A DNA stretch of 64,000 bases from Actinomycetota bacterium (lineage in GTDB: Bacteria > Actinomycetota > Acidimicrobiia > IMCC26256 > VFJJ01): contig VFJJ01000043.1 in assembly GCA_009886115.1 (NCBI GenBank), forward strand, positions 1 to 64,000, read 5' to 3'. The translations under genes were made by a program, and so were the position numbers. The notes under the pieces were generated by a model. It saw nothing but the letters and a program-made list of their open reading frames with translations, was not told the DNA's origin and searched no databases. Shown piece after piece: positions 48,010 through 64,000 of the stretch; position 1 is the first letter of the stretch; each line of letters starts with the position of its first letter.

Positions 48010-48599
48010 CGGGTGCACCTCGTGAACGCGTCGAGCACGCCCAACGCGGCCTCGTCGACCGAGCAGCCTTCGGTGTCGAGCACGACATGGGCGGCGGCCA
48101 CGTAGGCGGGGGCCCGGAGCCGGCCCAACCGGTCGAGGCGGGCCTCGATGGCCTCGACGCCGGCGAGCAGCGGCCGACCACTGCCGGACCCGACGCGCAG
48201 GACCAGGGTGGAGGTCGGCACGCGCAGCCAGACCACGCAGCAGGCGGCCCGCAGCGCCCGCCGGTTGTCAGGATCGATGACCGCTCCGCCCCCGCAGGCG
48301 ATCACCCCGGGCTCGATGCCGGCACAGGCCTCGGCCAGCGCGTCGCGCTCGAGCAGGCGGAACGCGGCCTCGCCGTCGGTCGCGAAGATCTCGGAGATCA
48401 CCCGGCCGGTGGCGAGCTCGACGACCTCGTCGACATCGACGAACGCACGGTCGAGCCGCCGGGCACAGGCTCGACCGACGCTGGTCTTGCCCGCGCCCAT
48501 CAGCCCGACGAGCGCCAGGTGCCGGGCGGGGTAGCGACCAGCGCCGGGATCGGGCCCAGAAGCACCACCGGGACCGGGCCCGGGAGCAGGACCGTTCAC
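48006..48599 (-). CDS. aroK: Shikimate kinase
   Basis: Phosphorylates shikimate. 197 residues with P-loop GLMGAGKTSVG, DVDEVVE, the GGGAVI loop and the lid arginine in GSGRPLL. GTG start overlapping the aroC stop as GTGA; the first 25 residues are a Gly/Pro-rich leader. Confidence 0.96.
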   Translation of the reverse strand: MNGPAPGPGPGGASGPDPGAGRYPARHLALVGLMGAGKTSVGRACARRLDRAFVDVDEVVELATGRVISEIFATDGEAAFRLLERDALAEACAGIEPGVIACGGGAVIDPDNRRALRAACCVVWLRVPTSTLVLRVGSGSGRPLLAGVEAIEARLDRLGRLRAPAYVAAAHVVLDTEGCSVDEAALGVLDAFTRCTR

Positions 48600-49750
48600 C
48601 GGAGGTTCTGGAGGTACGAGGCGTGGTTGCGCACGAGCTCGTCGACGGTGTCGCCGCCGAACTTCCGCAGCGCTTCCGAAGCCAGCACGAGGGCCACCAT
48701 CGCCTCGGCGACCACACCCGAGGCCGGGACGGCCGTGACGTCGGTGCGTTCCTTGAACGAGACCGTCTCGGCCTTGGTCGAGACGTCGACGGTCCGCAGC
48801 ACCGGCCGGTTGAGCGTGGAGAGGGGCTTCATCGCGACGCGGGCGACGAGCAGATCGCCGGTGGTCATGCCGCCCTCGACGCCACCCGCCCGATGGGTTC
48901 CACGGACATAGGCACCGGCCTCGGCGTCCCAGAGGATCTCGTCGTGGGCCTCGCTCCCCCGTCGCGACGCGACATCGAAGCCGTCGCCTATCTCGACGGC
49001 CTTCATGGCCTGGATGCTCATCAGCGCCTGCGCGAGCAGGGCGTCGATGCGCCGGTCCCAATGGACGTGCGAGCCCAACCCGGGCGGCAGGCCGAAGCCG
49101 AGCACCTCGACAACCCCCCCGAGACTGTCGCCGTCTTTCGCCGCCGCCTTGATCTGCTCGATCATGGCCACCTCGGCCACCGGATCGAAGCACCGCACTT
49201 GGGACGCGTCGATGATCGGCAGATCGTCGCGACCCGGCCGCGAATCGGACGAGGCTCGCGCCGTGCCCATCTGCACGACGTGGCTGATCACGCTGGCGCC
49301 GAGATGGCCCAGCAACAGTTTGGCCAGCGTACCGGCAACGACACGGGCGGCCGTCTCGCGCGCCGACGCCCGTTCGAGGACGTTGCGAGCGTCGTCGAAG
49401 CCGTACTTCTGCATCCCTGCGAGGTCGGCGTGGCCGGGTCGGGGCTCGCGCAGGGGCTTGCTCGTGCGACCAGGTGCCGGCGACATCTCCTCGACCCACT
49501 TCGGCCACTCGGTGTTGCGAATCAGCACCGAGACGGGCGAGCCGATCGTGACGCCGTGGCGGACGCCCGACAGCAGCTCGATGTCGTCCTGCTCGAAGCG
49601 CATGCGGGGGCCGCGCCCGTAGCCCATCCGCCGACGGGTGAGCTCCTCCGAGAGGTCCTCGATCAGCACCGGCAGGCCAGCCGGCAAGCCTTCGACGACC
49701 GCGACGAGCGCAGGTCCGTGGGATTCGCCGGCGGTCAGGAAGCGCAGCAC
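48596..49750 (-). CDS. aroC: Chorismate synthase
   Basis: Last shikimate step, needs reduced FMN. 384 residues with the three family signatures GESHGPALVAVVEGLPAGL, GKxx-type replaced by PLREPRPGHADLAGMQKYGFDDARNVLERASARETAARV, and GGVEGGMTTGD. GTG start. First gene of the tight aroC-aroK-aroB-aroQ-pepP unit. aroA, aroE and aroF are not in the window. Confidence 0.97.
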   Translation of the reverse strand: MLRFLTAGESHGPALVAVVEGLPAGLPVLIEDLSEELTRRRMGYGRGPRMRFEQDDIELLSGVRHGVTIGSPVSVLIRNTEWPKWVEEMSPAPGRTSKPLREPRPGHADLAGMQKYGFDDARNVLERASARETAARVVAGTLAKLLLGHLGASVISHVVQMGTARASSDSRPGRDDLPIIDASQVRCFDPVAEVAMIEQIKAAAKDGDSLGGVVEVLGFGLPPGLGSHVHWDRRIDALLAQALMSIQAMKAVEIGDGFDVASRRGSEAHDEILWDAEAGAYVRGTHRAGGVEGGMTTGDLLVARVAMKPLSTLNRPVLRTVDVSTKAETVSFKERTDVTAVPASGVVAEAMVALVLASEALRKFGGDTVDELVRNHASYLQNLR

Positions 49751-49829
49751 GAGCAGAGGTTACCGGTCGACTCGCGACGTGGGCTCACCTGGACGGGCGA
49801 ATGCTCCGGCCCGGCCGACGCTCCGACGC

Positions 49830-50603
49830 TCAGCCGCCGCGGTACCAGTCGAGCAGCGGGGCCCCCCACAGAACGGCGGTGATCGTCCCGGCGGCGAGGA
49901 ACGGGGCGAACGGGATGTGCTGCTTGCGGCCACGTTTCTTCGAGGCCATGAGGACGACGCCCACGACGGCTCCGAAGAGGAACCCGGAGAACAGGCCCAG
50001 GGCCACGTGCCCCCAGCCCAGCCAGCCCAGGTACAGGCCGAGGATTGCCGACAGCCGCACGTCGCCGAAGCCCATCCCGCGGGGTTGCACGATGTGGAGG
50101 ACGTACAAGAACGCGAAGGCGACCACGGCGCCCCCGAGGGCTCGGGGAACCTGACCCCACCGGTCGTCGAGCGCCGCCGCCAGGGCCAACAGGGGCAACG
50201 ACGCGAACCCCACGGGGTACACGATCCGGTTCGGCACGATGTAGTGCTCGAGATCGATGACCGCAATGGCCAAGAGCGCGGCAAACAGCAGGCAGAACGC
50301 CGGGATCTGCCACGACCCGTCGAAGCGGATCGCCACGGCGCCGAACAGGGCCGCCGTTCCCAGCTCGACGAGGGGATAGCGCACCCCGATCTGGGCATGA
50401 CAGCGCCGGCACCGCCCCTTGAGGAGCATCCACGACACGACGGGGACGAGGTCGCGGGGTGCGAGCACGTGGTCGCACTGCGGGCAGTGCGAGCCCGGCG
50501 ACCCCACCGATTCCTTCCGGGGAACACGCCAGATGACGACGTTGAGGAAGGAACCGACGAGCAGCCCCAGCACCGTGCACCCTATGGCGACCTCTGTGGC
50601 CAT
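49830..50603 (-). CDS. pilD: Type IV prepilin peptidase (A24A)
   Basis: Membrane aspartyl protease that cleaves and N-methylates prepilins. 257 residues, about seven membrane segments. Zinc-finger cysteines CPQC and CRRC in the first cytoplasmic loop mark the methylating type; the catalytic aspartates are in VIDLEHYIVPN and GFGDVRL (GxGD). It lies downstream of a pilin-like gene, its probable substrate. Confidence 0.95.
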   Translation of the reverse strand: MATEVAIGCTVLGLLVGSFLNVVIWRVPRKESVGSPGSHCPQCDHVLAPRDLVPVVSWMLLKGRCRRCHAQIGVRYPLVELGTAALFGAVAIRFDGSWQIPAFCLLFAALLAIAVIDLEHYIVPNRIVYPVGFASLPLLALAAALDDRWGQVPRALGGAVVAFAFLYVLHIVQPRGMGFGDVRLSAILGLYLGWLGWGHVALGLFSGFLFGAVVGVVLMASKKRGRKQHIPFAPFLAAGTITAVLWGAPLLDWYRGG

Positions 50604-50676
50604 GCGTTCCTCCCCGATTCTCGACCAGGACCGATCGGGCCGGGCGGGCTGGCCCCTCCGGCACGGGCTCGTCGGA

Positions 50677-51162
50677 CTACCAGGTCGTCCCGCTGGTGAC
50701 GGTCAGGGCGTGGTTCGCGGTGCAGAGCGAGGCATCGGTGGTGGAGCCGTAGAAGGGACTGGCCTCGACCCCGACGACGTCGTGGATCACGTAGCAGGTC
50801 CCGCTGGTGGCCATCACCGCGATCCCGAGCTCCTGGTCGTTCGACGTGACCCCCACGCTGACGACCTCCACGTCGTTCGACGGAGCGGCGGGGGCCAGGT
50901 AGGTGTAGGTGGGCTCGATCGTGGGCAGCGCGGCTTCGGCGTCGCCGTAGGTGGAGGCGTCGGCGTAGAGGATCCTCGCTGCGGTCAGGACGTTGCGGGC
51001 GACCGACTGCGCCTCGCGGTTGTCGGCCCGGGTTCGGGCACTCAAGAACGTGGGCACGGCGATCACGATCAACACGCCGAGCACCAGCGCGACGACGAGC
51101 AGCTCGACCAGGGTGAACCCCCGGTCGTCGCGTCGCGTCCTGCGTCGGAGAACCTGGATCAT
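50677..51162 (-). CDS. Type IV pilin-like protein
   Basis: 161 residues with a short basic leader and the prepilin cleavage site in DDRGFTLVELLVVALVLGVLIVIAVPTF: cut between Gly and Phe, Glu at mature position 5, then a hydrophobic helix. The globular part has two cysteines near the C terminus (GTCYVIHD and DASLCTANH), probably a disulfide. ATG at 51162 with a GAGGGGG site. With pilD it forms a small pilus or pseudopilus module; motor and secretin genes are not here. Confidence 0.92.
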   Translation of the reverse strand: MIQVLRRRTRRDDRGFTLVELLVVALVLGVLIVIAVPTFLSARTRADNREAQSVARNVLTAARILYADASTYGDAEAALPTIEPTYTYLAPAAPSNDVEVVSVGVTSNDQELGIAVMATSGTCYVIHDVVGVEASPFYGSTTDASLCTANHALTVTSGTTW

Positions 51163-51335
51163 CGATGCGCCCCCTCGGCCCGGCTTGCGGAGTCGCGCGG
51201 CGGTGCCGCGGCTCCCGTGTCTGTCCCAACACATCGGAACCGGACCCGTCCAGGTTGAGCGCGTTTCGCCCTGAACGGACATATCGCTCGTGCGGCAGGC
51301 GGCCGAGGGCGGGCTCGGGCGCCTCTCAGCGACCG

Positions 51336-52193
51336 CTACACCGTCATGCCGCCGTCGACGGGGATGACCGCGCCGGTGAGGCCGCTGGCCTCGGGCGAGC
51401 ACAGGTAGGCGATGGCCGAGGCGACCTCCTGGGGATCGAGGAGGCGGCCGGTGAGGTGGTGCACGGCGAAGTCGTCGACCGAGGCCAGGTCGTAGATGAC
51501 AGCCGAGGCTGCCAGCATGGGGGTGCGCATCGACCCGGGACAGACCGCATTGGCGGTCACGCCCAGCGGCCCGAGATCGCAGGCCAGGCCGCGGACGTAG
51601 CCGACCACCGCGTGCTTGGCGGCGTTGTAGGCGCCGAGCCGGGGCATGCCGGTGAGACCGGCCGCGGAGGCGACGGCGACGAACCGTCCCCGACCCGCAG
51701 GAGCCGTGGCCACGATGGCGGGGATGGCCGCCCCGGCGAGGTGGTGGACCCCGTCGACGTTGACGGCGAACAGCTCGCGCCACAGATCGGACGGGGTCTC
51801 CCAGGCTGGTGGTCCGCCGCCCATGAGCCCGGCGCAGGCGATCGCCGCGTCGAGACGCCCGAAGCGCGCGACGACGTCGGTCACGGCCCTCACCAGGGAG
51901 TGAGCCTCGCGAACGTCAGCGACCAGGGCCATCGCCGGCGACCCCGCAGCCTCGCAGGCGTCGCGCACCGCTTCCAGCTCCGCGACCGTGGCCTGTGGGT
52001 ACGGCACGGCCGGGTTGGGCGCGCAGGCGTCGACCAGGCCGACCCGCCATCCCCGGCTGGCGAGCAGTCGAGCGGTCGCGGCCCCGAGGCCGCGTGCGGC
52101 CCCGGTGACGATGGCGACCGGGGCCGCGCCGGGGCCGCCCTCGGAGCCAGCAGCGCCCCCAGAATCGGCAGCGCCCTCAGAAGGTGATGACAC
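51336..52193 (-). CDS. Mycofactocin-coupled SDR family oxidoreductase
   Basis: Short-chain dehydrogenase, 285 residues: TGAARGLGAATARLLASRGW cofactor motif, catalytic Ser in VASAAGLTGMPRLG, YNAAK Tyr/Lys, PG and C-terminal GAVIPVDGGMTV. After the second strand it has an insertion (DACAPNPAVPYPQATVAELEAV) of the kind that marks mycofactocin-dependent SDRs, in which NAD(H) is not exchanged and mycofactocin takes the electrons. The start, GTG at 52193, overlaps the alcohol dehydrogenase end by 17 bases; the first 25 residues are a Gly/Ala linker. Substrate unknown. Confidence 0.9.
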   Translation of the reverse strand: MSSPSEGAADSGGAAGSEGGPGAAPVAIVTGAARGLGAATARLLASRGWRVGLVDACAPNPAVPYPQATVAELEAVRDACEAAGSPAMALVADVREAHSLVRAVTDVVARFGRLDAAIACAGLMGGGPPAWETPSDLWRELFAVNVDGVHHLAGAAIPAIVATAPAGRGRFVAVASAAGLTGMPRLGAYNAAKHAVVGYVRGLACDLGPLGVTANAVCPGSMRTPMLAASAVIYDLASVDDFAVHHLTGRLLDPQEVASAIAYLCSPEASGLTGAVIPVDGGMTV

Positions 52194-53283
52194 CGCGGAT
52201 GTTCTTGCCGGCCAGGAGGTCGGCGTAACCCTCGTTGATCTGGTCGAGCGTGTACGTGGTGGTGATCAGCTCGTCGAGCTTGAGGAGGCCGTCTCGGTAG
52301 AGCCCCAGCAGCTTGGGGATGTCGACACGAGGGTTGCAGGATCCGAACAGCGTGCCCCTGAGCTGCTTGTTCATGAGCGTCAGATCGAGCAGGCTGAGCT
52401 GCACGTCCATCTGCATCATCGGAGCGACGGCCGTCGCCACGCAGGTGCCGCCCTTGGCCGTGAGGGCCATGCCCGGAGCGATGAGATCGCCCGTGAGCAC
52501 CCCCGGGCACAGGATCACCGAGTTCGCCATGAGACCGTACGAGAGCTGCTGGACCAGCGGCATGGCCTCCTCCATGGAGGCGACGGCGTGGGTCGCCCCG
52601 AGGCTCATGGCGGTCTCGCGCTTGAACTCGAGGGGGTCGACGGCCACCACGTACCGAGCTCCGGCCATCCGGGCGCCCTGGACCGCGTTCATGCCGATCC
52701 CGCCGCATCCGACGACGACGACCGTGTCGCCGACCGTGACCTCGGCCCGGTTGACCGCCGATCCCCAGCCGGTGGCCACGCCGCAGCTCACCAACGCGAC
52801 CTGCGGCATCGGGAGGTCGGGCTCCACCTTGACGAGCGACATCTCACTGCACACCGTGTGCTCGGAGAACGTCCCGATGGCACACATCGAGTTGAGCTCG
52901 ATCCCCTTGGCCCGGACCCGACTCGTGCCGTCGAGCATCCGACCCGAGAGCAGCATCGCTCCGGTGTCGCAGAGGTTCTGTCGACCCGTCGAGCACATCC
53001 GGCACCGGCCGCACGACGGGATGAACGAGAACGAGACGTGATCGCCCGGAGCGAGGTCGGCGACACCCGGGCCGACCTCCATCACGACGCCGGCACCCTC
53101 ATGACCGCCGATGATGTTCGGGGCGGCGGGCATGTCACCGGTGATGAGGTGCTCGTCGGAGTGGCACATCCCTGCTGCGGCCATCTTGACCAGGACCTCA
53201 CCGGTCTTGGGCCCGTCGAGATCGACGTCCTCGACCGACCACTGCTTGGCCCCGTCCCACAGCACCGCAGCACGCGTCTTCAT
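52177..53283 (-). CDS. NDMA-dependent-type zinc alcohol dehydrogenase
   Basis: Medium-chain dehydrogenase, 368 residues: catalytic zinc ligands in GMCHSDEH and GGHEGAGVV, structural zinc Cys in CGRCRMCSTGRQNLCD, and Rossmann VVVGCGGIGMNAVQGARMAGA. MKTRAAVLW opening, GAMLLSGRMLDGTSRV and the ITTTYTLDQINEGYADL end fit the NDMA-dependent alcohol dehydrogenase group that keeps NAD bound and needs mycofactocin in vivo. The ATG at 53283 is used; a GTG three codons upstream is possible. It is translationally coupled to the SDR gene. Confidence 0.93.
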   Translation of the reverse strand: MKTRAAVLWDGAKQWSVEDVDLDGPKTGEVLVKMAAAGMCHSDEHLITGDMPAAPNIIGGHEGAGVVMEVGPGVADLAPGDHVSFSFIPSCGRCRMCSTGRQNLCDTGAMLLSGRMLDGTSRVRAKGIELNSMCAIGTFSEHTVCSEMSLVKVEPDLPMPQVALVSCGVATGWGSAVNRAEVTVGDTVVVVGCGGIGMNAVQGARMAGARYVVAVDPLEFKRETAMSLGATHAVASMEEAMPLVQQLSYGLMANSVILCPGVLTGDLIAPGMALTAKGGTCVATAVAPMMQMDVQLSLLDLTLMNKQLRGTLFGSCNPRVDIPKLLGLYRDGLLKLDELITTTYTLDQINEGYADLLAGKNIRGVITF

Positions 53284-53637
53284 GCTCTCCACCGTTTCGT
53301 CTCGCCGACTCGGCCCGATCGTTCGCCGTACGCTAGTGCCACCGTCGACGTCGATCGACCCCGCCGACCCCGGACCGGGTCCCGTGCCGCACGGCGGCCC
53401 CGCCTCGCCGGCGACCGGCGTGCGCGCCGTGCGCGCCGAGGGCGCCGACCTCCGGCGAGCCGGCGGGCGGCAACTCGCCGTCAGTGGTCCTCGGTCCCGG
53501 TCGGACGGCCCCTGCGGTTGGCGGCGAGACGGTATCCGCCCACGCTGGCGGCGCTGACGCTCACTCTCGAGATCGCTGCGACCCTGCCGGCCATCGGCTT
53601 GCTGGTCGCAGGCATGCCACCCACGGTGATCCGACCG
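53284..53637. other. 354-base region between the VWA gene and the alcohol dehydrogenase gene, no gene seen
   Basis: No reading frame on either strand has convincing coding signal. It should hold the alcohol dehydrogenase promoter; a TAGCGT about 55 bases before the ATG could be a -10 element, but no good -35 partner is visible. GC-rich direct repeats such as gtgcgcgcc occur near 53420-53435. The space separates the dehydrogenase pair from the MoxR-VWA pair, so these may be different transcripts. Confidence 0.6.
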
Positions 53638-54558
53638 TCATGCGATCAACCCCCGGAGCGCCTCGGGCACCCGCGATGGGCCGGCCAGCTCCACACAGCG
53701 TCCCCCGCCGGCCCGGGCCAGCGCCCTGGCGTCTTCAGCGTCGCCGAGGGGTGCCACCACGTGCAACTGCTCGAGTCGCCGGGCCTCGACCACGGGATCG
53801 GTGCCTGCTGTCGGACGGCCGTCCGAGAGCAAGATCACGACCTTGCGCCGCGCCGGGCTTCGTTCGAGCTGCTCACGAGCCACGCGCAGGGCCAGCGAGA
53901 GATTCGTCGTCCCGTACCCCTTGAGCGCGAGGAGGTCGTCGACGACCTCCTCGACGTCGCGGGGCACGTCCTGGGACTTGAGGACGATGGCGTCACCGGC
54001 GAAGGCGACGACCGAGTGATCGAGGGGCGCCCGCCAGGCGACGGTGGCGGCAGCGACGGCCGCGGCCGCCAGTCGGGCCCCGCCCATCGAGCCGCTGCGG
54101 TCGACCAGCAGGCACACGGCCAGGCGAGCCTTCACCCAATCGCGCGACCGGAGCTCGTCGATGGCCGGCGCTCGACCGGCGGCGCGGGCCTCGACGAGAG
54201 CGTCGAGCGAGGCGTCGATGTCGAGATCGCCACCGTCGCTCCATCGGGCCGTGCGTAGACGCTCGATGCCCCGGCGAGCGAGCGCATCACTTCGGGCGAA
54301 GCGGACGATCACCCGCCCGGCCAGCCGGCGCGCGAGCTCCTTGAGCTGGGCGTCCGTCACGTTCGCCAGGTCGGCCAGGAGGCCGAGCGCGTCGTCGGGG
54401 GACTCCTCGAACACCTGGGCGAACGCATCGACGTCGAGCTCGCCGGTCTGGGGTGAGACCCGTTCGAACTCGGGGCGCCGGGCGAGCAGCTGCCGGGCGG
54501 TGGTGCGACGACGCTCCTGGCGGACGGCGTCTGCGGCCTCGTCGCCCTCTCGGATCAG
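53638..54558 (-). CDS. VWA-domain protein, partner of the MoxR ATPase
   Basis: About 306 residues. A C-terminal von Willebrand factor A domain with the metal-site motif LLVDRSGSMGG, a Thr in GYGTTNLS and the Asp in LLSDGRPTAGTD. The N-terminal half is helical (LANVTDAQLKELARRLAGRVIVRF). MoxR-VWA pairs act as chaperones that load metals or assemble enzyme complexes (for example CoxD/CoxE). Codon use shows coding sequence up to the moxR stop, but no ATG, GTG or TTG lies there; a CTG at 54558 overlapping the moxR stop as CTGA is the likely start. A GTG at 54414 would lose about 48 residues. Confidence 0.88.
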   Translation of the reverse strand: MIREGDEAADAVRQERRRTTARQLLARRPEFERVSPQTGELDVDAFAQVFEESPDDALGLLADLANVTDAQLKELARRLAGRVIVRFARSDALARRGIERLRTARWSDGGDLDIDASLDALVEARAAGRAPAIDELRSRDWVKARLAVCLLVDRSGSMGGARLAAAAVAAATVAWRAPLDHSVVAFAGDAIVLKSQDVPRDVEEVVDDLLALKGYGTTNLSLALRVAREQLERSPARRKVVILLSDGRPTAGTDPVVEARRLEQLHVVAPLGDAEDARALARAGGGRCVELAGPSRVPEALRGLIA

Positions 54559-55616
54559 GCCCCGTCCCGCCGAGCCTCGGCCGGGAACGGGGCTGGAGCT
54601 TTTCCCGCGGCCCCGGCTTCACGCTCGCCGTCGTCCCGATCGTCACCGACGTCGTCGTCGTTCCCGGTGCCGTCCCCGGCGTCGGTGTCGTCGGTGTCGT
54701 CGTCGGCGGGGAAGATGCGGTCGTAGAGCTCCTCGATCACCGACTCGGGCGTGCGCGACGAGCCCTCGTACAGGCGGATCCGACCCGACAGCGCACTCAC
54801 CGCAGCGTCGAGAGCCACCGAACGCTGGCGCGGCGGCCGGGCCCGGATCAGCCCCAGCTCGAGAGCCAGGATCTCGCAGTCGACGGCCCCCCGCACCGAC
54901 GATCCGACCCGCACCTCGGGATGCTCGCGGGTGGCTCGCACCAGCTCCACGACCCGCTGGCGCCACCGCCGGCCGGACGCGCCGACATCCTCGGCCTCGG
55001 TGTACGGCGCCACGGCCCGCCCCACGATCTCGGCCTCGTCGGCCGCGCTCTGGTAGCCCATGGCGATGCGGCAGGTCCGGTCGTAGATCGCCGCCGAGAT
55101 GCGTGCCGTCCCCACCGCGTCGAACGGGTTCATGGCTGCGACCAGCCGAAACCCGGGCGAAGCGGCGATGCGACCGACCCGGGGGACGTGCAGCTCGCCC
55201 TCGCTCATCACCGTGACGAGGACGTTGAGCGTCTCCTCGGGGATCCGGTTGATCTCCTCCAGGTACAGCAGGCCACCCTCGTGGAGGGCCACGGCCAGCG
55301 GGCCGGGCACGAAGGTCGACGGGCCGTACCCCTCGCTGAGAACCCGGGCCGGGTCGTGCGCGCCGACGAGGCGGGCCGGCGTGAGCTCGGCGTTGCCCTC
55401 GACGAACTCGAAGGGCACACCGCACCGGTGGGCCACCGAGCGCAACAGCGTCGACTTCCCGGTCCCGGGTGGGCCTTCGAGCAGCACGTGACGGCTCCCG
55501 GCCAGGGCCGCCACGACGATCTCGATCTCGCGCCGGCGACCCACGACGTCGAGCGTCAGAGCGTCGAGCAGCGCCCGACCATCGGTGAACGCGGCGGGCT
55601 GGCGGGACGGGCTCAT
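54555..55616 (-). CDS. MoxR-family AAA+ ATPase
   Basis: 353 residues. Walker A GPPGTGKST, Walker B LLYLEEINRIP, sensor 1 AAMNPFD, and the MoxR-typical GNAELTPARLVGAHDPA loop. The last 45 residues are a strikingly acidic linker (Asp-rich between PADDDTDD and DDGER) before an Ala/Pro tail, probably unstructured. Its partner VWA gene follows directly. It sits between mftE and the alcohol dehydrogenase, which suggests the pair matures a component of this redox system; that is inference. Confidence 0.93.
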   Translation of the reverse strand: MSPSRQPAAFTDGRALLDALTLDVVGRRREIEIVVAALAGSRHVLLEGPPGTGKSTLLRSVAHRCGVPFEFVEGNAELTPARLVGAHDPARVLSEGYGPSTFVPGPLAVALHEGGLLYLEEINRIPEETLNVLVTVMSEGELHVPRVGRIAASPGFRLVAAMNPFDAVGTARISAAIYDRTCRIAMGYQSAADEAEIVGRAVAPYTEAEDVGASGRRWRQRVVELVRATREHPEVRVGSSVRGAVDCEILALELGLIRARPPRQRSVALDAAVSALSGRIRLYEGSSRTPESVIEELYDRIFPADDDTDDTDAGDGTGNDDDVGDDRDDGEREAGAAGKAPAPFPAEARRDGA

Positions 55617-55706
55617 CGGCGCCGGACCCTACTCGCGCCGTGGCCCGTCAGCGCTTCCCGCCCGCCAGTTCGGACCGCCGACCGCCACGCGCCAGCACCG
55701 AGCCGT

Positions 55707-56417
55707 TCACCCTTCCGGGGTCGGCGCCGTGGAGGAGAAACCCGGGCGGAGGAGCTCCAGCAGTGCATCGACGAGCCCGTCGAGCAGACGCCGACCTTCG
55801 GCGGCCGAGGCGCCGGTGGCGTCACCGAGCACCCCGTCGAGGGCGTGGGGTCGCACCCCGTCGAGGTGGAGCCCGTCGAGGAGCTCGGCCAGCGGCGTCG
55901 TGTTGCCCACCGGTCGGACGGGCCGGACGGTCTCGGGAGCGAGGGCCAGCATCAGCGAGGTCTCGGTGCGACCGGCATGGGCGTCGCCACCGGGTACCGA
56001 CGCAAACCAGGCGATCGCCGGCCGTCCCTCGCGACAGAGCTGGTCGGCGGCCTGCCTGACGGTCGGGGCGTTCCCGCCGTGGCCGCACACGAACACCGTT
56101 CGGGCGAAGGTGTGCGCCGCCGATCGGCCCAGCTCCACGAGCACGGCCCGGAGCGCGTCGTGGCCGATCGAGAGGGTGCCGGGGAAGCCCTGGTGCTCGC
56201 CCGAGGCACCGAAGACCAGCGCCGGAGCCACGACCAGGCCCGAGGCCCGACCGGCTGCGGCCCGGGCCACGCCGGTGGCCACCACGGTGTCGGTGTCGAA
56301 CGGGAGGTGGGGCCCGTGCTGCTCGGTCGCCCCCAGGGGCACGAGCAACGTCTCGTGGGCATCGGGCCCCGCTCGAACCTGGCTCAGCTCGGTCCAGGTC
56401 GCGTGCGCCAGGTCCAT
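55707..56417 (-). CDS. mftE: MftE-like creatininase-family peptidase
   Basis: 236 residues of the creatininase fold with metal-binding GATEQHGPHLPFDTDT, CGHGGN and HAGRTETSLML. MftE is known to release the C-terminal Val-Tyr-derived dipeptide from the modified MftA precursor in mycofactocin synthesis. The identification rests on the family and on the flanking ETF, OYE and dehydrogenase genes, since creatininase relatives also serve other pathways. ATG at 56417 (MDLAHATWTEL) begins at the fold; the open frame upstream is antisense-like. Other mft genes are not in the window. Confidence 0.85.
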   Translation of the reverse strand: MDLAHATWTELSQVRAGPDAHETLLVPLGATEQHGPHLPFDTDTVVATGVARAAAGRASGLVVAPALVFGASGEHQGFPGTLSIGHDALRAVLVELGRSAAHTFARTVFVCGHGGNAPTVRQAADQLCREGRPAIAWFASVPGGDAHAGRTETSLMLALAPETVRPVRPVGNTTPLAELLDGLHLDGVRPHALDGVLGDATGASAAEGRRLLDGLVDALLELLRPGFSSTAPTPEG

Positions 56418-56490
56418 CAGCCGACGGCCGGCGCCGAGACCGCGTCGCGACCCGCCGGGCGAGGCCTCAGCAGCACGCGACCCGAGCGGG

Positions 56491-57459
56491 TCACGGGAGG
56501 TATCCCCAGGTCCGGAGCTGTCCGACGATCTCGGCTGCGGCCTCCTCAGGTTCGAGATGCACGAGCCGAGGGGGGCTGCGATCGACGAGCGCTCCGGTGA
56601 GGGCCAGGATGCGTTCGAGCGGCGTGAGCTCGGCGGACGGCGGCGACAGCACCCGGGGACGCGGACGATAGGGGCCGCGTCGGACGACCACGGGATCGAC
56701 ACGCTCCGACACCGTCAGCCGGGCGGCGGACGCGGCCACGACGACGCCAACGGGCTGATCGCGCGCCGCCAGCACTCCGGCGAGGCTGGCCCGACGGAGC
56801 CGGACCGGTCCGCCCTCGACCGAGATCACGACCGGCGAACCGAGACGGAGTCGCTCGCGGCGGCCCCCGTCGAGGCGACGTTCGACGACTCCGGTGGTGA
56901 CGTCGATGGTCACCACACCGAGGGCCTGCCCGACGCCGAGCTCGGCCGCCAGGAACGCCGGCACCGAGGCCGAGCCCCGGTCGAGCGACGCGTTCCCGCA
57001 CACCACCAGGTGCGATCCGTCGACCACCCCGGCGAGCTGGTGGGCCACGACCGGCGACGGAGCGTCGTCCGGGAGGCCGTCGATGCGCACCGCCGCGCTG
57101 GCACCCGAGGCCAGGGCTTCACGGAGCATCGCATCGGCCGCGGCCGGACCGACGCACACCACCGTCACGGTCGAACGCTCCAGCGGCGCCACTCCGCGAC
57201 CAGCACCCTCAACAGGGCTAACGCTTGGGCTAACGCCGTCGGCAGGACCAACGCCGTCGGAGGGCGCAACCCGGTGGGCCCGGTCAGCAGCGTCGGCGGC
57301 GTCCGCGGCGTCGGCGATCCGTAGCGCCCATTCGAGTGCAGCCTCGTCGGCGGGCGACGGTCCGAGGCTGTGACGGTCGACGGTGACCGTCCCGGTGAGG
57401 GCGTCCACCTCGAACCGCCGGGCCACGAGCTTCCAGCACACCGCCAGCGCCACGCTCAT
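56491..57459 (-). CDS. Electron transfer flavoprotein beta subunit (mycofactocin-associated type)
   Basis: 322 residues. The opening ALAVCWKLVARRF.VDALTGTVTVD..SPADEAALEWALRIADA is the ETF-beta pattern (usual start KQVPD...), followed by a low-complexity Ala-Asp and Pro/Gly/Val insert and the AMP-binding region VVCGNASLDRGSASVPAFLAAELGVGQALGVV. Longer than the usual 250-260 residues because of the insert and a C-terminal extension after VVVRRGPYRPRPR. ATG overlaps the ferredoxin stop as ATGA. ETF alpha is not adjacent but three genes upstream. Confidence 0.85.
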   Translation of the reverse strand: MSVALAVCWKLVARRFEVDALTGTVTVDRHSLGPSPADEAALEWALRIADAADAADAADRAHRVAPSDGVGPADGVSPSVSPVEGAGRGVAPLERSTVTVVCVGPAAADAMLREALASGASAAVRIDGLPDDAPSPVVAHQLAGVVDGSHLVVCGNASLDRGSASVPAFLAAELGVGQALGVVTIDVTTGVVERRLDGGRRERLRLGSPVVISVEGGPVRLRRASLAGVLAARDQPVGVVVAASAARLTVSERVDPVVVRRGPYRPRPRVLSPPSAELTPLERILALTGALVDRSPPRLVHLEPEEAAAEIVGQLRTWGYLP

Positions 57460-57764
57460 GACGCGTGGAAGACGACACCGTGGCCGCCCTCGGGGTAGCT
57501 CCAGCTGATGGCCCCTTCGGTGTCGCAGACCAGGTAGCAGGTGCCGCACTCGAAGCACTGCTCGTAGTTGAACACGATGCCCCCGTCGGACGTGGGCACG
57601 AACAGGTTGGCAGGGCAGGCCGTCACGCACGCCCGCGTCGAGCATCCCCGGCACGAGTCGCCGTCGACGACGATGTGCGGGGTCGGCGAGACACGGAACT
57701 CGACGGTGCCCATCCGGTCGTCGAACGACACCCGGGGCCAGGTTCGGGACGAGTCGTTGGTCAT
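57456..57764 (-). CDS. fixX: FixX-like ferredoxin
   Basis: 102 residues with two iron-sulfur cysteine sets: CRGCSTRACVTACPANLF and YEQCFECGTCYLVCD, like FixX and the C-terminal ferredoxin domain of ETF:quinone oxidoreductase. It would pass electrons between ETF and the FixC flavoprotein. The ATG at 57764 shares a base with the fixC stop (TGATG). Confidence 0.93.
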   Translation of the reverse strand: MTNDSSRTWPRVSFDDRMGTVEFRVSPTPHIVVDGDSCRGCSTRACVTACPANLFVPTSDGGIVFNYEQCFECGTCYLVCDTEGAISWSYPEGGHGVVFHAS

Positions 57765-59107
57765 CAGCCGTAGCTCCTGATCGCTGTCCAACCGTCGCGA
57801 GCCAGATCACGCAGACGCACCCTGGATCGGCGGGCCGACTTCCACGCGAGCCGAGCGATGCCCTGCTTGGGGGCGGGGTTGCGCACCGTGAAGAGGTCCT
57901 CGACGACGTCGCACGTGAGCTGCGGATACTGGAACTGGGCTCGCCCCGACAAGAGGAACTCGGGGACCCGGCGCAGCTTCTTGTGGTCGGCGAGCACGAA
58001 GTTGGCCTCGAGTCGGGCGCGGTAGCCGGCGAGGCCTCGCGCCGCGGTCGTGTCGCCGCTGCGGATGGCCTCGACGGCGGTCGCCCCGGCGGCCAGGCCC
58101 GAGCCGATCGCGAAGTTCACACCCTCGAGCCAGACCCCGGCCGCGAGGCACAGCCCGGCGGCGTCGCCGGCCACGAGCAGACCGTCGCCGGCCAGGGTGG
58201 GGATCTGGTCGTAGCCGCCTTCGGGGATCAGGTGGGCCGAGTACTCGACGATCTCGCCGCCGGCGACAAATGGCGCGATCGAGGGGTGGGCCTTGAAGCC
58301 AGCGAGGATCTCCTCGGGGCGGTGCTTCGACGCGGCCAGGCCCGGGAGGTGCAGCACGACGCCGACGGAGATCGTGTCGAGGTTCGTGTAGAGGAAGCCG
58401 CCCCCGGGGACGTCCATCGTGCAGCCGACGACCTCGAAGTCGGCACCCTCACGGCCCGTGAGATTGAACCGCTGTTCGATGCTCTCCCGGGGCAGTCGCA
58501 GCACTTCCTTGACGCCGAGCGTGGTGTGCTCGGCCTGCTCGCTCGCCCCCGGATACAGGCCGGCGGCCTTGGCGATGAACGAGTTGACGCCGTCGCAGGC
58601 GATGACCACGCGGGCTCGTAGCGCTGAGGTCGAAGCGCCCGTGGCGGGGTCGGGCCGGTCGGTGACCACACCGACCACCCGCCCGGACGGGTCACGCACG
58701 ACATCGGTGGCCACCGTGGAGGTGACCAGGACGCTGCCCGCGGCCTCGGCCTTGGCCGCCAGCCACGCGTCGAAGTCGGGGCGCAGCGCCGTCGCGCCGT
58801 TGTACGGGGGCCCGGCCCAGGTCTGCGATCGGAAGTCGAGGCACAGGCTCTGCGTGGGAGTGAGGATCATCGTGCCGCGTCGGGTGATCCACCGCTGGAT
58901 GGGAATCTCGTCCCACCAATTGGGAATGACCTGGTCGAGGACCCGTCCGTAGATCACGCCGCCGTACATGTTCTTCGACCCGGGGAACGGGCCGCGCTCG
59001 AGCAGGGCCACCCGGAGCCCGGCCCGGGCGACGGCCAACGCAGCCGCCGATCCCGCCGGGCCGGCGCCCACCACGATCACGTCGAACGGGTCGGGGGCCG
59101 CGGTCAT
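57764..59107 (-). CDS. fixC: FixC-like ETF:quinone oxidoreductase flavoprotein
   Basis: 447 residues. FAD-binding VIVVGAGPAGSAAALAVARAGLRVALLERG, the SKNMYGG segment and GDGLLVAGDAAGLCLAAGVWLEGVNFAIGSGLAAG are typical of FixC/ETF-QO. It lacks a fused ferredoxin domain, supplied by the next gene. Expected at the membrane, passing electrons from ETF to the quinone pool. ATG overlaps the etfA stop as ATGA. Confidence 0.94.
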   Translation of the reverse strand: MTAAPDPFDVIVVGAGPAGSAAALAVARAGLRVALLERGPFPGSKNMYGGVIYGRVLDQVIPNWWDEIPIQRWITRRGTMILTPTQSLCLDFRSQTWAGPPYNGATALRPDFDAWLAAKAEAAGSVLVTSTVATDVVRDPSGRVVGVVTDRPDPATGASTSALRARVVIACDGVNSFIAKAAGLYPGASEQAEHTTLGVKEVLRLPRESIEQRFNLTGREGADFEVVGCTMDVPGGGFLYTNLDTISVGVVLHLPGLAASKHRPEEILAGFKAHPSIAPFVAGGEIVEYSAHLIPEGGYDQIPTLAGDGLLVAGDAAGLCLAAGVWLEGVNFAIGSGLAAGATAVEAIRSGDTTAARGLAGYRARLEANFVLADHKKLRRVPEFLLSGRAQFQYPQLTCDVVEDLFTVRNPAPKQGIARLAWKSARRSRVRLRDLARDGWTAIRSYG

Positions 59108-60375
59108 GTTCCTCCAACGCTCGGGAGTGCGTCCTGGTCGACGGGCTCGGCGGGGTCGAACGGCTCGGCGGGGTCGACGGCGATGAGCCGGGCCAGCGCA
59201 TCGAGCACGGCCCGGGCGTCGCTCACGATCGCCAGGTCGGCCAGGCCCATCATGGGGCAGCTCGGATCGGTGTTCACCGAGATCACATGGTCGGGATCAC
59301 CCAGACCGGTCACGTGCTGCACGGCGCCGCTGATCCCGAAGGCAAGGTAGAGCCGGGGGTTCACGGCCACCCCCGTGGTCCCGATCTGGCGCTCGAAGGG
59401 GAGCCAGCCGGCGTCGGTGGCGACCCTGGTTCCGCCGAGCGAGGCTCCGAAGCGGGCGCCGATGGCCGCCAGCAGGTCGAAGCGCTGCGTGCTCGCCCCG
59501 TCGTCGGGGCCGGCCAAACCCTGGCCGCCGGCGACGATCCGGCGGGCCTCGGCCAGGTCGACGGTGCTCGGGTCGGCAGCCACGAGCTCCACCAGCTCGG
59601 GATCGCCGGCCCCCATTCCGACGCTCACCACGACCGACGTGACCTCGTTCGCGGAAGGTGCCGGCGCGGCCGGGCCGGAGGTCGCGCCAGGCCCGGGCGC
59701 CCCACTCACCCCGGCCGCGATGCCTCGGGAGCCGGGGACGAGCGTCGCCACCGCCGGGCCGGCGAGGCGCACGTCGGTCTCGACCCCGCCGTGGTGGGTC
59801 ACGACCGTGGCGCCGTGGAGGTCGATGCGGACCGCGCCCGCGACCAGGGGTCGATGAAGGACATGGGCCAACCGCGGCGCGAGGTCTCGGCCGTCGGCCG
59901 AGGCCGGCAGCACCACGACCGTCTCCGATGCCAGTGCCGCTGCCAGGGCCTGCGCCCACGCCGCCGGTGCGTACACGCCGAGCTCCGAGACCCGCAGCAG
60001 GCGCGCGGGGACGGCCAGGGTCGCTGCGGCCTCGACGACGCCCGAGCCCACGAGCCACACCCGTCCGCCGGCTTCGGCGACGACCTCGTCGGCCCCGAGC
60101 GGGAGCTGACCGTCACGCACGGGCACGAGCGCCAGCATCCCGGCGTCGGGATCGCCGCTGGCGACGGTCCGGAGACCGGTGTCGGGGCCGGGATGGGCGC
60201 GGGGATCGGTGCCCCCGACCGCGTCGACGGGGGCACCAGCCGCCGGGACAGCACCAACCGCCGGAGCAGCGCCAGCGGCCGGGGCCACAAAGCGGCCGTC
60301 GGGGCCCCTTCGACGAGCCGGTCGAGGCGCGCCCCGACCGGCGTCGAGTGGTTCATCGGGTCGGCGCGCGCTCAC
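59104..60375 (-). CDS. Electron transfer flavoprotein alpha subunit (mycofactocin-associated type)
   Basis: 423 residues. The C-terminal FAD domain is clear: AGGQGLAG, GARFGASLGGTRVATDAGWLP, RQIGTTGVAVNPRLYLAFGISGAVQHVTG and ISVNTDPSCPMMGLADLAIVSD. The N-terminal 70 residues are an Arg then Pro/Ala/Val-rich stretch absent from ordinary ETF alpha, and the first domain starts near MLALVPVRDGQLP. GTG at 60375 overlaps the upstream oxidoreductase stop as GTGA; a later start is possible because the leader is so unusual. Confidence 0.88.
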   Translation of the reverse strand: MSARRPDEPLDAGRGAPRPARRRGPDGRFVAPAAGAAPAVGAVPAAGAPVDAVGGTDPRAHPGPDTGLRTVASGDPDAGMLALVPVRDGQLPLGADEVVAEAGGRVWLVGSGVVEAAATLAVPARLLRVSELGVYAPAAWAQALAAALASETVVVLPASADGRDLAPRLAHVLHRPLVAGAVRIDLHGATVVTHHGGVETDVRLAGPAVATLVPGSRGIAAGVSGAPGPGATSGPAAPAPSANEVTSVVVSVGMGAGDPELVELVAADPSTVDLAEARRIVAGGQGLAGPDDGASTQRFDLLAAIGARFGASLGGTRVATDAGWLPFERQIGTTGVAVNPRLYLAFGISGAVQHVTGLGDPDHVISVNTDPSCPMMGLADLAIVSDARAVLDALARLIAVDPAEPFDPAEPVDQDALPSVGGT

Positions 60376-62384
60376 AACCGCTCCCCCACCCGCTGCCCCT
60401 CGACGACCGCGGCGTGGATGCGGCGCGGCGCCACGCAGTCGCCCACACGCTCGACCCGGATCCCGGCGTCGCGACAGGCCCGCCAGAGACCGTCGGCGGG
60501 CGCGGCGGGAACGCACAACACCAGCCAGTCGACCTCGCGGAGCTCGGACCCGCCGGTCGGATGGTGCACGAGCTGCAAGGCCAGGCCCGGCCGGCCGTCG
60601 GCGCACGGCCCGGCACCCATCACGAGGGTGTCGGTCGTCTGGGCGATGCCCTTGGCCGACGCTCGCATCCACCACTGCTCCAGGTCGAGCGTGATCCCGA
60701 GGTCTTGGCCCACGACCATGCCCGGGGTGATCACCTCGACCGCGCAGCCCCGATCGGCGAGCAGCTCGGCGACCGACGTGGCCTGGTGGAACCCCAGCTC
60801 GTCGAACACGGCCACCCGGCCTGTCGGTGCCGCCCGTCCGGCGAGCACGTCGGTCACATCGACGACCAGCGCCCCGGGGGCTTCGGCCAGGGACGGGTCG
60901 ACCTGCGGTACCCACCAGGGCCGTTCGGGCACCGAACCCGTGGCGACCACCACGACGTCGGGCCGCAGCGCCCGCAGCGAGTCGACCGAGGCCTCCTCGC
61001 CGTAGCGCATCGTCACGCCGGCCCGGCGGCACTCGGTGACCTGGTTGCGAATCACGTCGCCGAGCTCGGCCCGGTTGGCCACCGTGGCCGCCAGACGGAC
61101 CTGCCCGCCCGGCACCGGATCGCGCTCGATGACCGTCACGCGATGACCCCGATTCGCGGCGGCGATGGCGGCCTGCATCCCGGCCGGGCCCGCCCCGACC
61201 ACGACCACCCGTTGCGGACGGTCGACCAGGGCCACCGCCGAGGCCCACCGGCCCCGCTCGGCCTCGCGGCCCGTGCGCGGGTTCTCGATGCAGCCCAGCC
61301 AGCGGTTGAGACCCATCCGCCCGACGCACTCCTGGTTGCACGACAGGCACAGGCGCGTGTCGTCGACATGACCGGAACGGGCCTTGGCCACGAAGTCGGC
61401 GTCGGCGATCTGGCCGCGCACCACCCCGACGAGGTCGCAGTGCCCGGCATCGAGGGCCCGCTCGGCCTGCAGCGGGTCCTTGAACCGACCGACGCCGACC
61501 ACCGGCAACGAGATCGCCTTGCGAATCGCGCTCGGGATGAACATGGCGTATCCGGGCGGCACGTGCATCGACGCCTCGATCATGTACAGGGTCGCGGTGG
61601 CGACGCCGATCGAGGTGTTGACGTAGTCGACCTGCCCGGTGGCTTCGACCATCCGGGCCACCTCGACAGCATCGTCGATGGTCGTGCCGTGCTCGATCAG
61701 CTCGTCGCCGCACAGGCGCACGCCGAGCGCCAGGTCGCGCCCGATCGTCTCCCTGACTGCGGCCACGATCTCGAGCAGCAACCGAGCCCGCCGCGCCAAC
61801 GTGCCGCCGTAGTCGTCGGTCCGGTGGTTCGTGGCGAGAGACAGGAAGCCCCGCACGATCGACGAGTGCGAGCATTGGAGCTCGATGCCGTCGAAGCCGC
61901 CCTGGCGGCAGTGCCCGGCCACGAGGGCGTATCCGGCCACGATCTCGGCGATCTCGCGGACCTCGAGCTCCTTGGGCACCTCCCGGAACAGCGGGTCGGG
62001 CACGCTCGAGGGGGCCCACACCGGCAAGCGGGAGTACATCGACGATGCCTGCCCGCCGTTGTGGTTGATCTGGGCGAAGATCGGCGTGCCGTGGGCGTGC
62101 ACGGCGTCGGTGATCTGCCGGTACCCGGGGATCACCGACGGCGAGAACCCGTGGATGAGCTTCTCGTAGGGCCAGTCGGTCGGGTGCACCGAGTGCTCCT
62201 CGGTGATGATCAGCCCCGCACCCCCCGCGGCCCGGGCTTCGTAGTACGCAGCGTGCTGATCGGTCGCGTGGCCGTCCTCGGCGTAGTTCGTGAGGTGGGC
62301 GCTGAACACGACCCGGTTCTCGACGGTGACCGGTCCGAGCCGCAGCGGGCTGAACAAGCGGGGATAGCGCGCGACGGTGGGCAT
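60372..62384 (-). CDS. FadH/OYE-family oxidoreductase (mycofactocin system, type 2-like)
   Basis: 670 residues laid out like 2,4-dienoyl-CoA reductase: an FMN-binding TIM barrel (1-340; RYPRLFSPLRLGPVTVENRVVFSAHLTNYAEDG), four iron-sulfur cysteines (346, 349, 353 and 365 in CLSCNQECVGRMGLNRWLGC), then an FAD/NAD-binding half with VVVGAGPAGMQAAIAAANRG at about 394. Two such proteins accompany mycofactocin genes in many actinobacteria. Substrate unknown; a part in mycofactocin re-oxidation or maturation is inferred from location. Confidence 0.9.
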   Translation of the reverse strand: MPTVARYPRLFSPLRLGPVTVENRVVFSAHLTNYAEDGHATDQHAAYYEARAAGGAGLIITEEHSVHPTDWPYEKLIHGFSPSVIPGYRQITDAVHAHGTPIFAQINHNGGQASSMYSRLPVWAPSSVPDPLFREVPKELEVREIAEIVAGYALVAGHCRQGGFDGIELQCSHSSIVRGFLSLATNHRTDDYGGTLARRARLLLEIVAAVRETIGRDLALGVRLCGDELIEHGTTIDDAVEVARMVEATGQVDYVNTSIGVATATLYMIEASMHVPPGYAMFIPSAIRKAISLPVVGVGRFKDPLQAERALDAGHCDLVGVVRGQIADADFVAKARSGHVDDTRLCLSCNQECVGRMGLNRWLGCIENPRTGREAERGRWASAVALVDRPQRVVVVGAGPAGMQAAIAAANRGHRVTVIERDPVPGGQVRLAATVANRAELGDVIRNQVTECRRAGVTMRYGEEASVDSLRALRPDVVVVATGSVPERPWWVPQVDPSLAEAPGALVVDVTDVLAGRAAPTGRVAVFDELGFHQATSVAELLADRGCAVEVITPGMVVGQDLGITLDLEQWWMRASAKGIAQTTDTLVMGAGPCADGRPGLALQLVHHPTGGSELREVDWLVLCVPAAPADGLWRACRDAGIRVERVGDCVAPRRIHAAVVEGQRVGERL

Positions 62385-62387
62385 CGG

Positions 62388-64000
62388 TCAGGCCCCCGGA
62401 CCGTCGAGCGCCAGCGCCGCCCGTCGACCTTCGAGGATGGCCTCGTGGATGGTGCGCGGGGCGACGGCGTCGCCGGCGCGGGGATGGCGCTCGCCGGTGG
62501 CGCGCCACAGGGCGTCGTCGGGCAGGAGCGTGCCGCAATCGACGAGCGCCGCGCAGGCGATGACCGTGGTGAGGCCCGTGTACCGCTCCTCGACGACGAC
62601 CCCGGTCGTACCGAGGCTCCGCAGCACCGATCGCTTCACGAGCGCGACGCCCGCTTGGAGCAGCCGGGTGTTGGCTGGGGCCAGGTCGCCGGTGAGCGAG
62701 AGCTGGGTGCCGACGGTGAAGTCGGGGCAGACCAGCGTGACCTGCCGGCCCCGCGATGCCAGGAGCTCGGCGATCGAGACGGCGACGGGTCCTCCGACGG
62801 GGTCCCAGACCACGACCGGGCCCTCCGGCAACGCCGCGTCTAGACCCCGGACGGTGCCGGTGGGCGACCGGCGCTCGGTGGCCAGCAGGTCGGATGCGCT
62901 CCACACCACGACGCCGCTCGACCCGCTCGACGATGCCCCGCCCGACCCGCGCGCGGGGGCCCCGCCGGTCGACGGCGGCGAGGTACCGGCGTAGGGCCGC
63001 AGCCCTGGACGGGCGCCGGTGCACAGCACGACGGCGTGGTCGCCGGCGATGCGTTCGACGAGCCCCGGTTCGATCTCGCTGCTGGTCTCGATGGTGACCC
63101 CGAGGCGGCGGCACTCGGCTTCGAGCCAGTCGGCGATGAGCGCCAGCCTCGACCGACCCGAGCCCGCCGCGGCCGTCCGCACCGATCCGCCGAGCCCGCT
63201 CGACCGCTCGACGAGGCGCACCCGGTGTCCTCGGGCTGCGGCGACCCGGGCGCACTCCAGGCCGGCGACACCCGCCCCGACAACGAGCACGTCGCGTGGC
63301 GCGCCGGCTGTCCGTCCGGTTCCTTCACCGATGTCGACGCCGATGTCGACGCCGGCGCAGGGATCGGGGTCGTCGAGCTCGTGGCCCGACCGGGGCTCGC
63401 CGACACAGCTGACGATGGGGTTGCGGCCGTCGCGCACCTGGCACTTCTGGTTGCAGAGCAGGCACGGACGCACGCGGTCGGCGTGGCCGGCGGCGACCTT
63501 CGCACCCAGGTCGGGGTCGGCGATCTGGGCCCTGGTCATCTCGACGGCGTCGGCCCGGGCCGGATCGTCGAAGCCGCCGAGCGCCCACTCGGCCTGGCCC
63601 CACTCGACGATCGAGCCCTGGGCCACGACCGCGACGCCCGGTCGGACAGCCGTGACGGCTTCTCGGATCTGCGCCACGAGACCGAGGTTGAATCCGGGCT
63701 CGGTGTGGCCGTCGGGCCGCGTGGCGCCCGTCGAGAAGATCGAGCCCCGCACCACGGTGATGGCATCGACGGTCTCGGCCAGCGCGGCGGCGACCAGGGC
63801 ACCCACGTCGGCGACGATGCCAGCCCAGGGGGCGAGCTCGTCGCACGAGAGCCGGATGGCCAGAACGGCGTCGGGGCCGATCGCATCACGAACAGCGGCC
63901 AGCACGCGCTGGGCGAATCGCAGGCGGAGGCCGTCGTCATGGCCGCCGTCGGACCCCGTCCACTCGTCGCTGCGCTGGTTCGTGAGCCCGGAGAGGAACT
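62388..64000 (-). CDS. FadH/OYE-family oxidoreductase (mycofactocin system, type 1-like), N terminus beyond window
   Basis: Only the last 537 residues are present. The reading frame stays open to the edge, where it reads FLSGLTNQRSDEWTGSDGG, the usual Q-F-L-S-P-x-x-N-x-R-T-D-x-Y-G-G region of the TIM barrel. It also has the cysteines CLLCNQKCQVRDGRNPIVSC and the FAD motif VVGAGVAGLECARVAAARGH. A Gly/Ser/Ala-rich insert (GGAPARGSGGASSSGSSG) splits the second half. It lies three bases upstream of its paralogue; the two are clearly different proteins, so this is an old duplication. Confidence 0.9.
   Translation of the reverse strand, partial: FLSGLTNQRSDEWTGSDGGHDDGLRLRFAQRVLAAVRDAIGPDAVLAIRLSCDELAPWAGIVADVGALVAAALAETVDAITVVRGSIFSTGATRPDGHTEPGFNLGLVAQIREAVTAVRPGVAVVAQGSIVEWGQAEWALGGFDDPARADAVEMTRAQIADPDLGAKVAAGHADRVRPCLLCNQKCQVRDGRNPIVSCVGEPRSGHELDDPDPCAGVDIGVDIGEGTGRTAGAPRDVLVVGAGVAGLECARVAAARGHRVRLVERSSGLGGSVRTAAAGSGRSRLALIADWLEAECRRLGVTIETSSEIEPGLVERIAGDHAVVLCTGARPGLRPYAGTSPPSTGGAPARGSGGASSSGSSGVVVWSASDLLATERRSPTGTVRGLDAALPEGPVVVWDPVGGPVAVSIAELLASRGRQVTLVCPDFTVGTQLSLTGDLAPANTRLLQAGVALVKRSVLRSLGTTGVVVEERYTGLTTVIACAALVDCGTLLPDDALWRATGERHPRAGDAVAPRTIHEAILEGRRAALALDGPGA

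Follow-up and report, generated by a model that had tools for sequence, protein, structure and literature searches.

A mycofactocin gene cluster without MftD, and an OYE_2-ETF-FixCX module proposed to stand in for it

How could a locus for mycofactocin, a redox cofactor derived from a peptide, work when its genome has no recognisable mftD? MftD converts AHDP to pre-mycofactocin and so completes the redox centre of the cofactor. Deletion of mftD in M. smegmatis abolished PMFT and all mycofactocins and led to accumulation of AHDP (PMC7491314), and a working locus that lacks MftD therefore needs a replacement for a step which has been described as aerobic (PMC8406134). The question is raised by a cluster in which mftC, mftB and mftA accompany a set of flavoproteins, in a genome with no mftD above the profile cut-off (best 306 bits against 471). 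MftG, which couples mycofactocin to respiration in M. smegmatis (PMC11778925), was likewise not found above the TIGR03970 cut-off: the genome's best match, on another contig, reached 329 bits where 387 are required. Graca et al. 2025 left open what takes over the role of MftG in organisms that lack it (PMC11778925).

The window, i.e. the whole stretch of 64,000 nucleotides that was analysed, lies on contig C181 (67,081 bp), and the 3,081 bp of the contig to its right were also examined, gene identities being assigned by NCBIfam profiles with curated cut-offs together with Pfam domains. The minus strand between 51336 and 64000 carries, in order of transcription, OYE_1, OYE_2, etfA, fixC, fixX, etfB, mftE and genes for a MoxR-type ATPase, a VWA/CoxE-like protein, an NDMA-type alcohol dehydrogenase (ADH) and an SDR, with operon-like spacing in which adjacent genes mostly overlap or abut. 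OYE_1, the mycofactocin system FadH/OYE oxidoreductase 1 (62388–64000 in the window, reaching 64526 on the contig), scored 716 bits over the whole protein against a cut-off of 628 (TIGR03996), and OYE_2, oxidoreductase 2 of the same system and the proposed replacement for MftD (60372–62384), scored 950 against 793 (TIGR03997). The mycofactocin-associated ETF subunits alpha (etfA, 59104–60138, start uncertain; NF038209 [mft_etfA], 359 bits against 240) and beta (etfB, 56491–57459; TIGR04503 [mft_etfB], 211 bits against 200) were both backed by Pfam as well. Between them lie fixC (57764–59107), encoding an ETF:quinone-oxidoreductase-like flavoprotein which matched FixC families below cut-off (E to 3e-97) and the ETF-QO ubiquinone-binding domain PF21162 (ETFQO_UQ-bd) marginally (28.1 bits against a gathering score of 27.7), and fixX (57456–57764), encoding a ferredoxin-like protein with 4Fe-4S Pfam domains, a FixX family match below cut-off (E 2.6e-15) and a Fer4_ETF_QO score of 21.1 against the Pfam threshold of 24. 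The peptidase MftE, which releases AHDP (55707–56417; TIGR03964, 253 bits against 172), the NDMA-dependent-type ADH (52177–53292; TIGR03989, 548 against 440) and the mycofactocin-coupled SDR (51336–52193; TIGR04504, 338 against 250) all scored above cut-off.

Immediately to the right of the window, on the same strand, mftC (64523–65722; TIGR03962), mftB (65722–66123; TIGR03967) and mftA (66108–66224; TIGR03969), whose product ends in IDGMCGVY, were each above cut-off; to the right of mftA, a divergent gene truncated by the contig end had mftF (TIGR03965) as its best match, at 150 bits against 280. Across the window and the 3 kb beyond it, ten locus proteins exceeded curated mycofactocin-family cut-offs, and the locus is a genuine mycofactocin gene cluster. 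A first, sequence-only reading of the window had named the genes from OYE_1 to the SDR, and all of them are present on the minus strand, with the ETF, OYE and SDR proteins above the curated cut-offs of their mycofactocin-associated families and FixC and FixX matching their families below cut-off. The mycofactocin locus it had proposed was borne out by mftA and mftC just beyond the window, so that the genome does hold an mftA-mftC pair; of the five genes it had pointed to right of the edge, mftA, mftB and mftC were there, mftF was the best match of the gene cut by the contig end, and mftD was not found.

Among 397 Actinomycetota genomes, 67 carried mftC, and MftD was above cut-off in 54 of these. 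OYE_2 was above its own cut-off in 12 genomes and was recognised in one more (G361, 764 bits, adjoining mftC), and these 13 were exactly the mftC-positive genomes without MftD (54 + 13 = 67, with zero overlap and zero gap; Fisher p 4e-14, kinship ignored). The etfA-fixC-fixX-etfB genes were present in all 13: mft_etfB was above cut-off in 9/67 mftC-positive genomes, all nine without MftD, as against 0/330 of the other genomes, and the remaining four OYE_2 genomes had, at the corresponding position, an etfA-fixC-fixX-etfB set that has diverged further (the etfB-like ORF of G361, L024:4728–5615, was judged by eye). OYE_1 went with the mft_etf type and was also detected in G361 with a low score; it was absent from the f44 genomes and from two archaeal loci, which retain OYE_2, ETF and FixCX. 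Where the parts of the module are scattered over separate contigs (G090 and G187), all were nevertheless retained.

A second survey, for which the prediction was recorded beforehand, covered 58 additional mftC-positive genomes of the same class, and 56 of these held exactly one of the two enzymes (MftD alone in 27; OYE_2 alone in 29, including partial matches in G492 and G617). The two exceptions were G480, with neither enzyme, a fragmented assembly with a contig that breaks off within mftC, and G586, with both, which has two mftC genes, one of them adjoining MftD. In G586 an MftD locus, an MftD-less locus and, on a third contig, OYE_1-OYE_2-ETF-FixCX were distinguished (L171, L172, L173). Pooled over 125 mftC-positive genomes, 81 had MftD only, 42 OYE_2 only, one both and one neither, which makes 123 of 125 with a single one of the two enzymes, and both types were found within single families and within the genera g307 and g318. 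This distribution suggests that the OYE_2-ETF-FixCX module stands in for MftD.

With kinship taken into account, a 130-row mftC tree showed at least 20 changes of type, 10 of them forced by well-supported branches, against a mean of 38 for shuffled labels, a count that is only rough because this was a quick tree with several long branches. Independent pairs on supported branches were opposite in 8/8 cases (p = 0.008). None of 80 named OYE_2 loci (0/80) had mftD within the available sequence of up to 10 kb on each side. When the whole genomes behind 46 of these loci were searched, 40 were without MftD and six had it, namely four Saccharopolyspora and two assemblies from metagenomes, in which MftD lies on contigs 5–7 kb long; the rule is therefore strong, not absolute. 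The four Saccharopolyspora (L227, L228, L230, L231) combine an OYE-type locus with a lone MftD that has no mft genes within about 9 kb, and one of them also has a second, mftC-mftD locus. Outside the bacteria, plasmids of Haloterrigena turkmenica and Halolamina sp. CBA1230 carry mftA, mftB2, mftC, etfB, fixX, fixC and etfA together with an OYE that fits the OYE_2 family best (625 and 615 bits, below cut-off), and MftD was not found in the sequence of these two plasmids. Thermomicrobium roseum has MftD, and the module is absent beside its mftC.

The electron path proposed by the sequence-only reading, from the dehydrogenases through mycofactocin to ETF, FixCX and quinone, survives as a putative, family-level route to quinone provided by ETF, FixC and FixX; that the route mainly re-oxidises reduced mycofactocin coming from the dehydrogenases has become less likely, given that the module tracks the absence of MftD and not the loss of MftG. 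If the ETF-FixCX proteins and an OYE did re-oxidise mycofactocin reduced by the SDR and ADH, they would feed quinone in place of MftG, and the absence of MftD would require some other, unseen replacement. Such a role would fit the absence of MftG above cut-off from 13/13 module genomes, the quinone-linked enzyme type at the end of the module, and the link between mycofactocin and respiration that MftG provides and for which a substitute elsewhere is still sought (PMC11778925). However, MftG was above cut-off in 15/67 mftC-positive genomes (with at most three further low-scoring genes near mftC), and at least 36 MftD-positive genomes have neither MftG nor the module. The module is associated weakly with missing MftG (p 0.03) compared with missing MftD (p 4e-14), and hardly any mftC-positive genome has neither MftD nor OYE_2. 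The module comes with the loss of MftD, in all but one fragmented assembly, and is not called for when MftG is lost. In view of those 36 or more genomes, substitution for MftG was rejected as its main role, and we regard this explanation as unlikely.

A combination of the two functions, in which OYE_2 makes pre-mycofactocin and OYE_1 re-oxidises the finished cofactor through the same ETF and FixCX, would account for the sharing of one ETF by two distinct OYEs in the type seen in the window and for the restriction of OYE_1 to the mft_etf type, but OYE_1 is missing from both archaeal loci and from the f44 genomes, all of which keep OYE_2, ETF and FixCX, and this arrangement seems doubtful to us. 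A further possibility is an unlinked catabolic OYE-ETF operon that merely travelled with the mft genes: catabolic functions are common among OYE-family enzymes, and the genes of an operon are inherited together. Against this stand the 20 or more type changes on the mftC tree, the exclusion of MftD even within genera g307 and g318, the retention of all parts in G090 and G187 although on separate contigs, and the occurrence of this module in the mft loci of archaea as well, which together make mere co-inheritance very improbable.

The observed gene content, the absence of MftD, the complementarity of OYE_2 and MftD and the accompanying ETF and FixCX point instead to the replacement of MftD: OYE_2 probably takes its place in AHDP deamination, with electrons leaving through ETF and FixCX to the quinone pool, although we infer the reaction itself, the sequence of electron transfers and the final acceptor, quinone. 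MftA, B, C, E and F would make mycofactocin, with the redox centre finished without MftD. OYE_2, a 4Fe-4S enzyme of the trimethylamine-dehydrogenase (TMADH)/dienoyl-CoA-reductase class, would oxidatively deaminate AHDP, the MftC/MftE product, to the alpha-keto amide pre-mycofactocin, and its 4Fe-4S cluster would pass the electrons on to the dedicated EtfAB, from which they would reach the quinone pool by way of FixC/FixX; deamination could then do without oxygen as the immediate oxidant. OYE_1, which some of the module genomes lack, would be an accessory or partner, and the SDR and NDMA-type ADH would be users of the finished cofactor; OYE_1, OYE_2 and ETF are indistinguishable by co-occurrence as the partner that acts on AHDP. 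Since the module tracks the absence of MftD and not that of MftG, the quinone-bound electrons would most likely come from cofactor synthesis, perhaps with a second role in re-oxidation through OYE_1. More broadly, we lean towards regarding OYE_2-ETF-FixCX as a second system for pre-mycofactocin synthesis, one that is unrelated to MftD, works without oxygen as direct oxidant, would have been swapped with MftD many times, would occur in Bacteria and Archaea, and would couple cofactor synthesis to respiration.

Both locus types contain MftE, and MftA ends in CGVY in 45/45 OYE-type and 81/82 MftD-type loci in which MftA was found (the single deviating MftA was probably picked in error); both types are thus expected to share the AHDP intermediate. 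OYE_2 itself consists of an OYE barrel, 4Fe-4S cysteines (113/114 sequences) and an intact first nucleotide-binding fingerprint (114/114). In the OYE_2 of L027 (G341), Asp replaces a 4Fe-4S cysteine (CVADNQMC). The second nucleotide site reads DE(L/I/V)GFHxA or similar (98/114 by pattern) and, unlike that of NADPH-dependent dienoyl-CoA reductase, lacks the canonical NAD(P)H glycine motif, the stretch recalling DDDHYY of histamine dehydrogenase. An AlphaFold model of moderate quality (pLDDT 75) gave full-length fold matches to 2-naphthoyl-CoA reductase (NCR), dienoyl-CoA reductase (DCR), HPON amine oxidase, histamine dehydrogenase and TMADH. In sequence as in fold, the 2-naphthoyl-CoA and dienoyl-CoA reductases lie closer to OYE_2 than the amine dehydrogenases do, and the Cys that binds FMN covalently in TMADH is absent from OYE_2 (PHCNG of histamine dehydrogenase aligns with SAHLT). 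Two arguments were dropped in the course of the analysis: sequence closeness to the amine dehydrogenases, as NCR and DCR score higher, and a conserved His (H173) taken to prove amine chemistry, as YqjM-type OYEs also have His at the matching position. In TMADH, electrons pass from the 4Fe-4S cluster to ETF, and a structure of the complex exists (PMC8097209), so this enzyme class is capable of amine oxidation with ETF, a capability that we extend to OYE_2 by inference.

Compared with the mycobacterial cluster (mftA–F and mftG), the present type shares mftA, B, C and E, a probable mftF, the nicotinoprotein SDR/ADH partners and the MftA core, whereas MftD and MftG are absent and OYE_1, OYE_2, EtfAB and FixCX are there instead. 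OYE_2 shares with the TMADH-ETF and histamine dehydrogenase systems the OYE barrel, the 4Fe-4S site, a non-canonical second nucleotide site and, for TMADH, the ETF partner, but differs in its identity of at most 27% in the fold match, its missing FMN-binding Cys and a substrate that is proposed. MftG, a GMC oxidoreductase, also ties mycofactocin chemistry to respiration, but it belongs to an unrelated family, re-oxidises the finished cofactor and has a distribution that does not mirror that of the module. The locus proteins are members above curated cut-offs of mycofact_OYE_1, mycofact_OYE_2, mft_etfA and mft_etfB, families already named in NCBIfam, where the names convey association only, and a Streptomyces plasmid already carries this operon with RefSeq annotation; the present analysis contributes the complementarity between OYE_2 and MftD, together with the role that it suggests. 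In the literature searched, which included few subscription papers, mycofactocin was never mentioned alongside FixC, electron transfer flavoprotein or Acidimicrobi-, and earlier notice elsewhere is possible. If the proposal is true, the MftD-less genomes would be explained, the OYE_2, mft_etfA and mft_etfB families would be assigned a function, and mycofactocin synthesis could proceed with no oxygen as its direct oxidant; the question of what replaces MftG is narrowed, in that it is not OYE_2-ETF-FixCX in most genomes.

The MoxR-VWA pair named by the first reading was confirmed by Pfam as a MoxR-type AAA ATPase (54555–55616; PF07728 and bpMoxR domains) and a CoxE-like VWA protein (53638–54414, start uncertain, with the frame open upstream to about 54555; PF05762, VWA_CoxE). 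Together with the ADH these genes form a recurrent cassette (52177–55616) which is also seen in mft loci of other genomes, and in 37/43 mft-region loci with this MoxR it neighboured the ADH in the same orientation, in OYE-type and MftD-type loci alike. The cassette may have a role in ADH maturation rather than in electron transfer. In the haloarchaeal mft loci (L164:24305–27479 and L166:20874–23998) the module likewise has VWA and AAA ATPase genes as neighbours, whose products in Haloterrigena resemble chelatase D/I subunits. To the left of the locus, on the same strand (46894–51232), lie aroB, aroK, aroC, a prepilin peptidase gene and a type IV pilin-like gene, as judged by eye from the translations.
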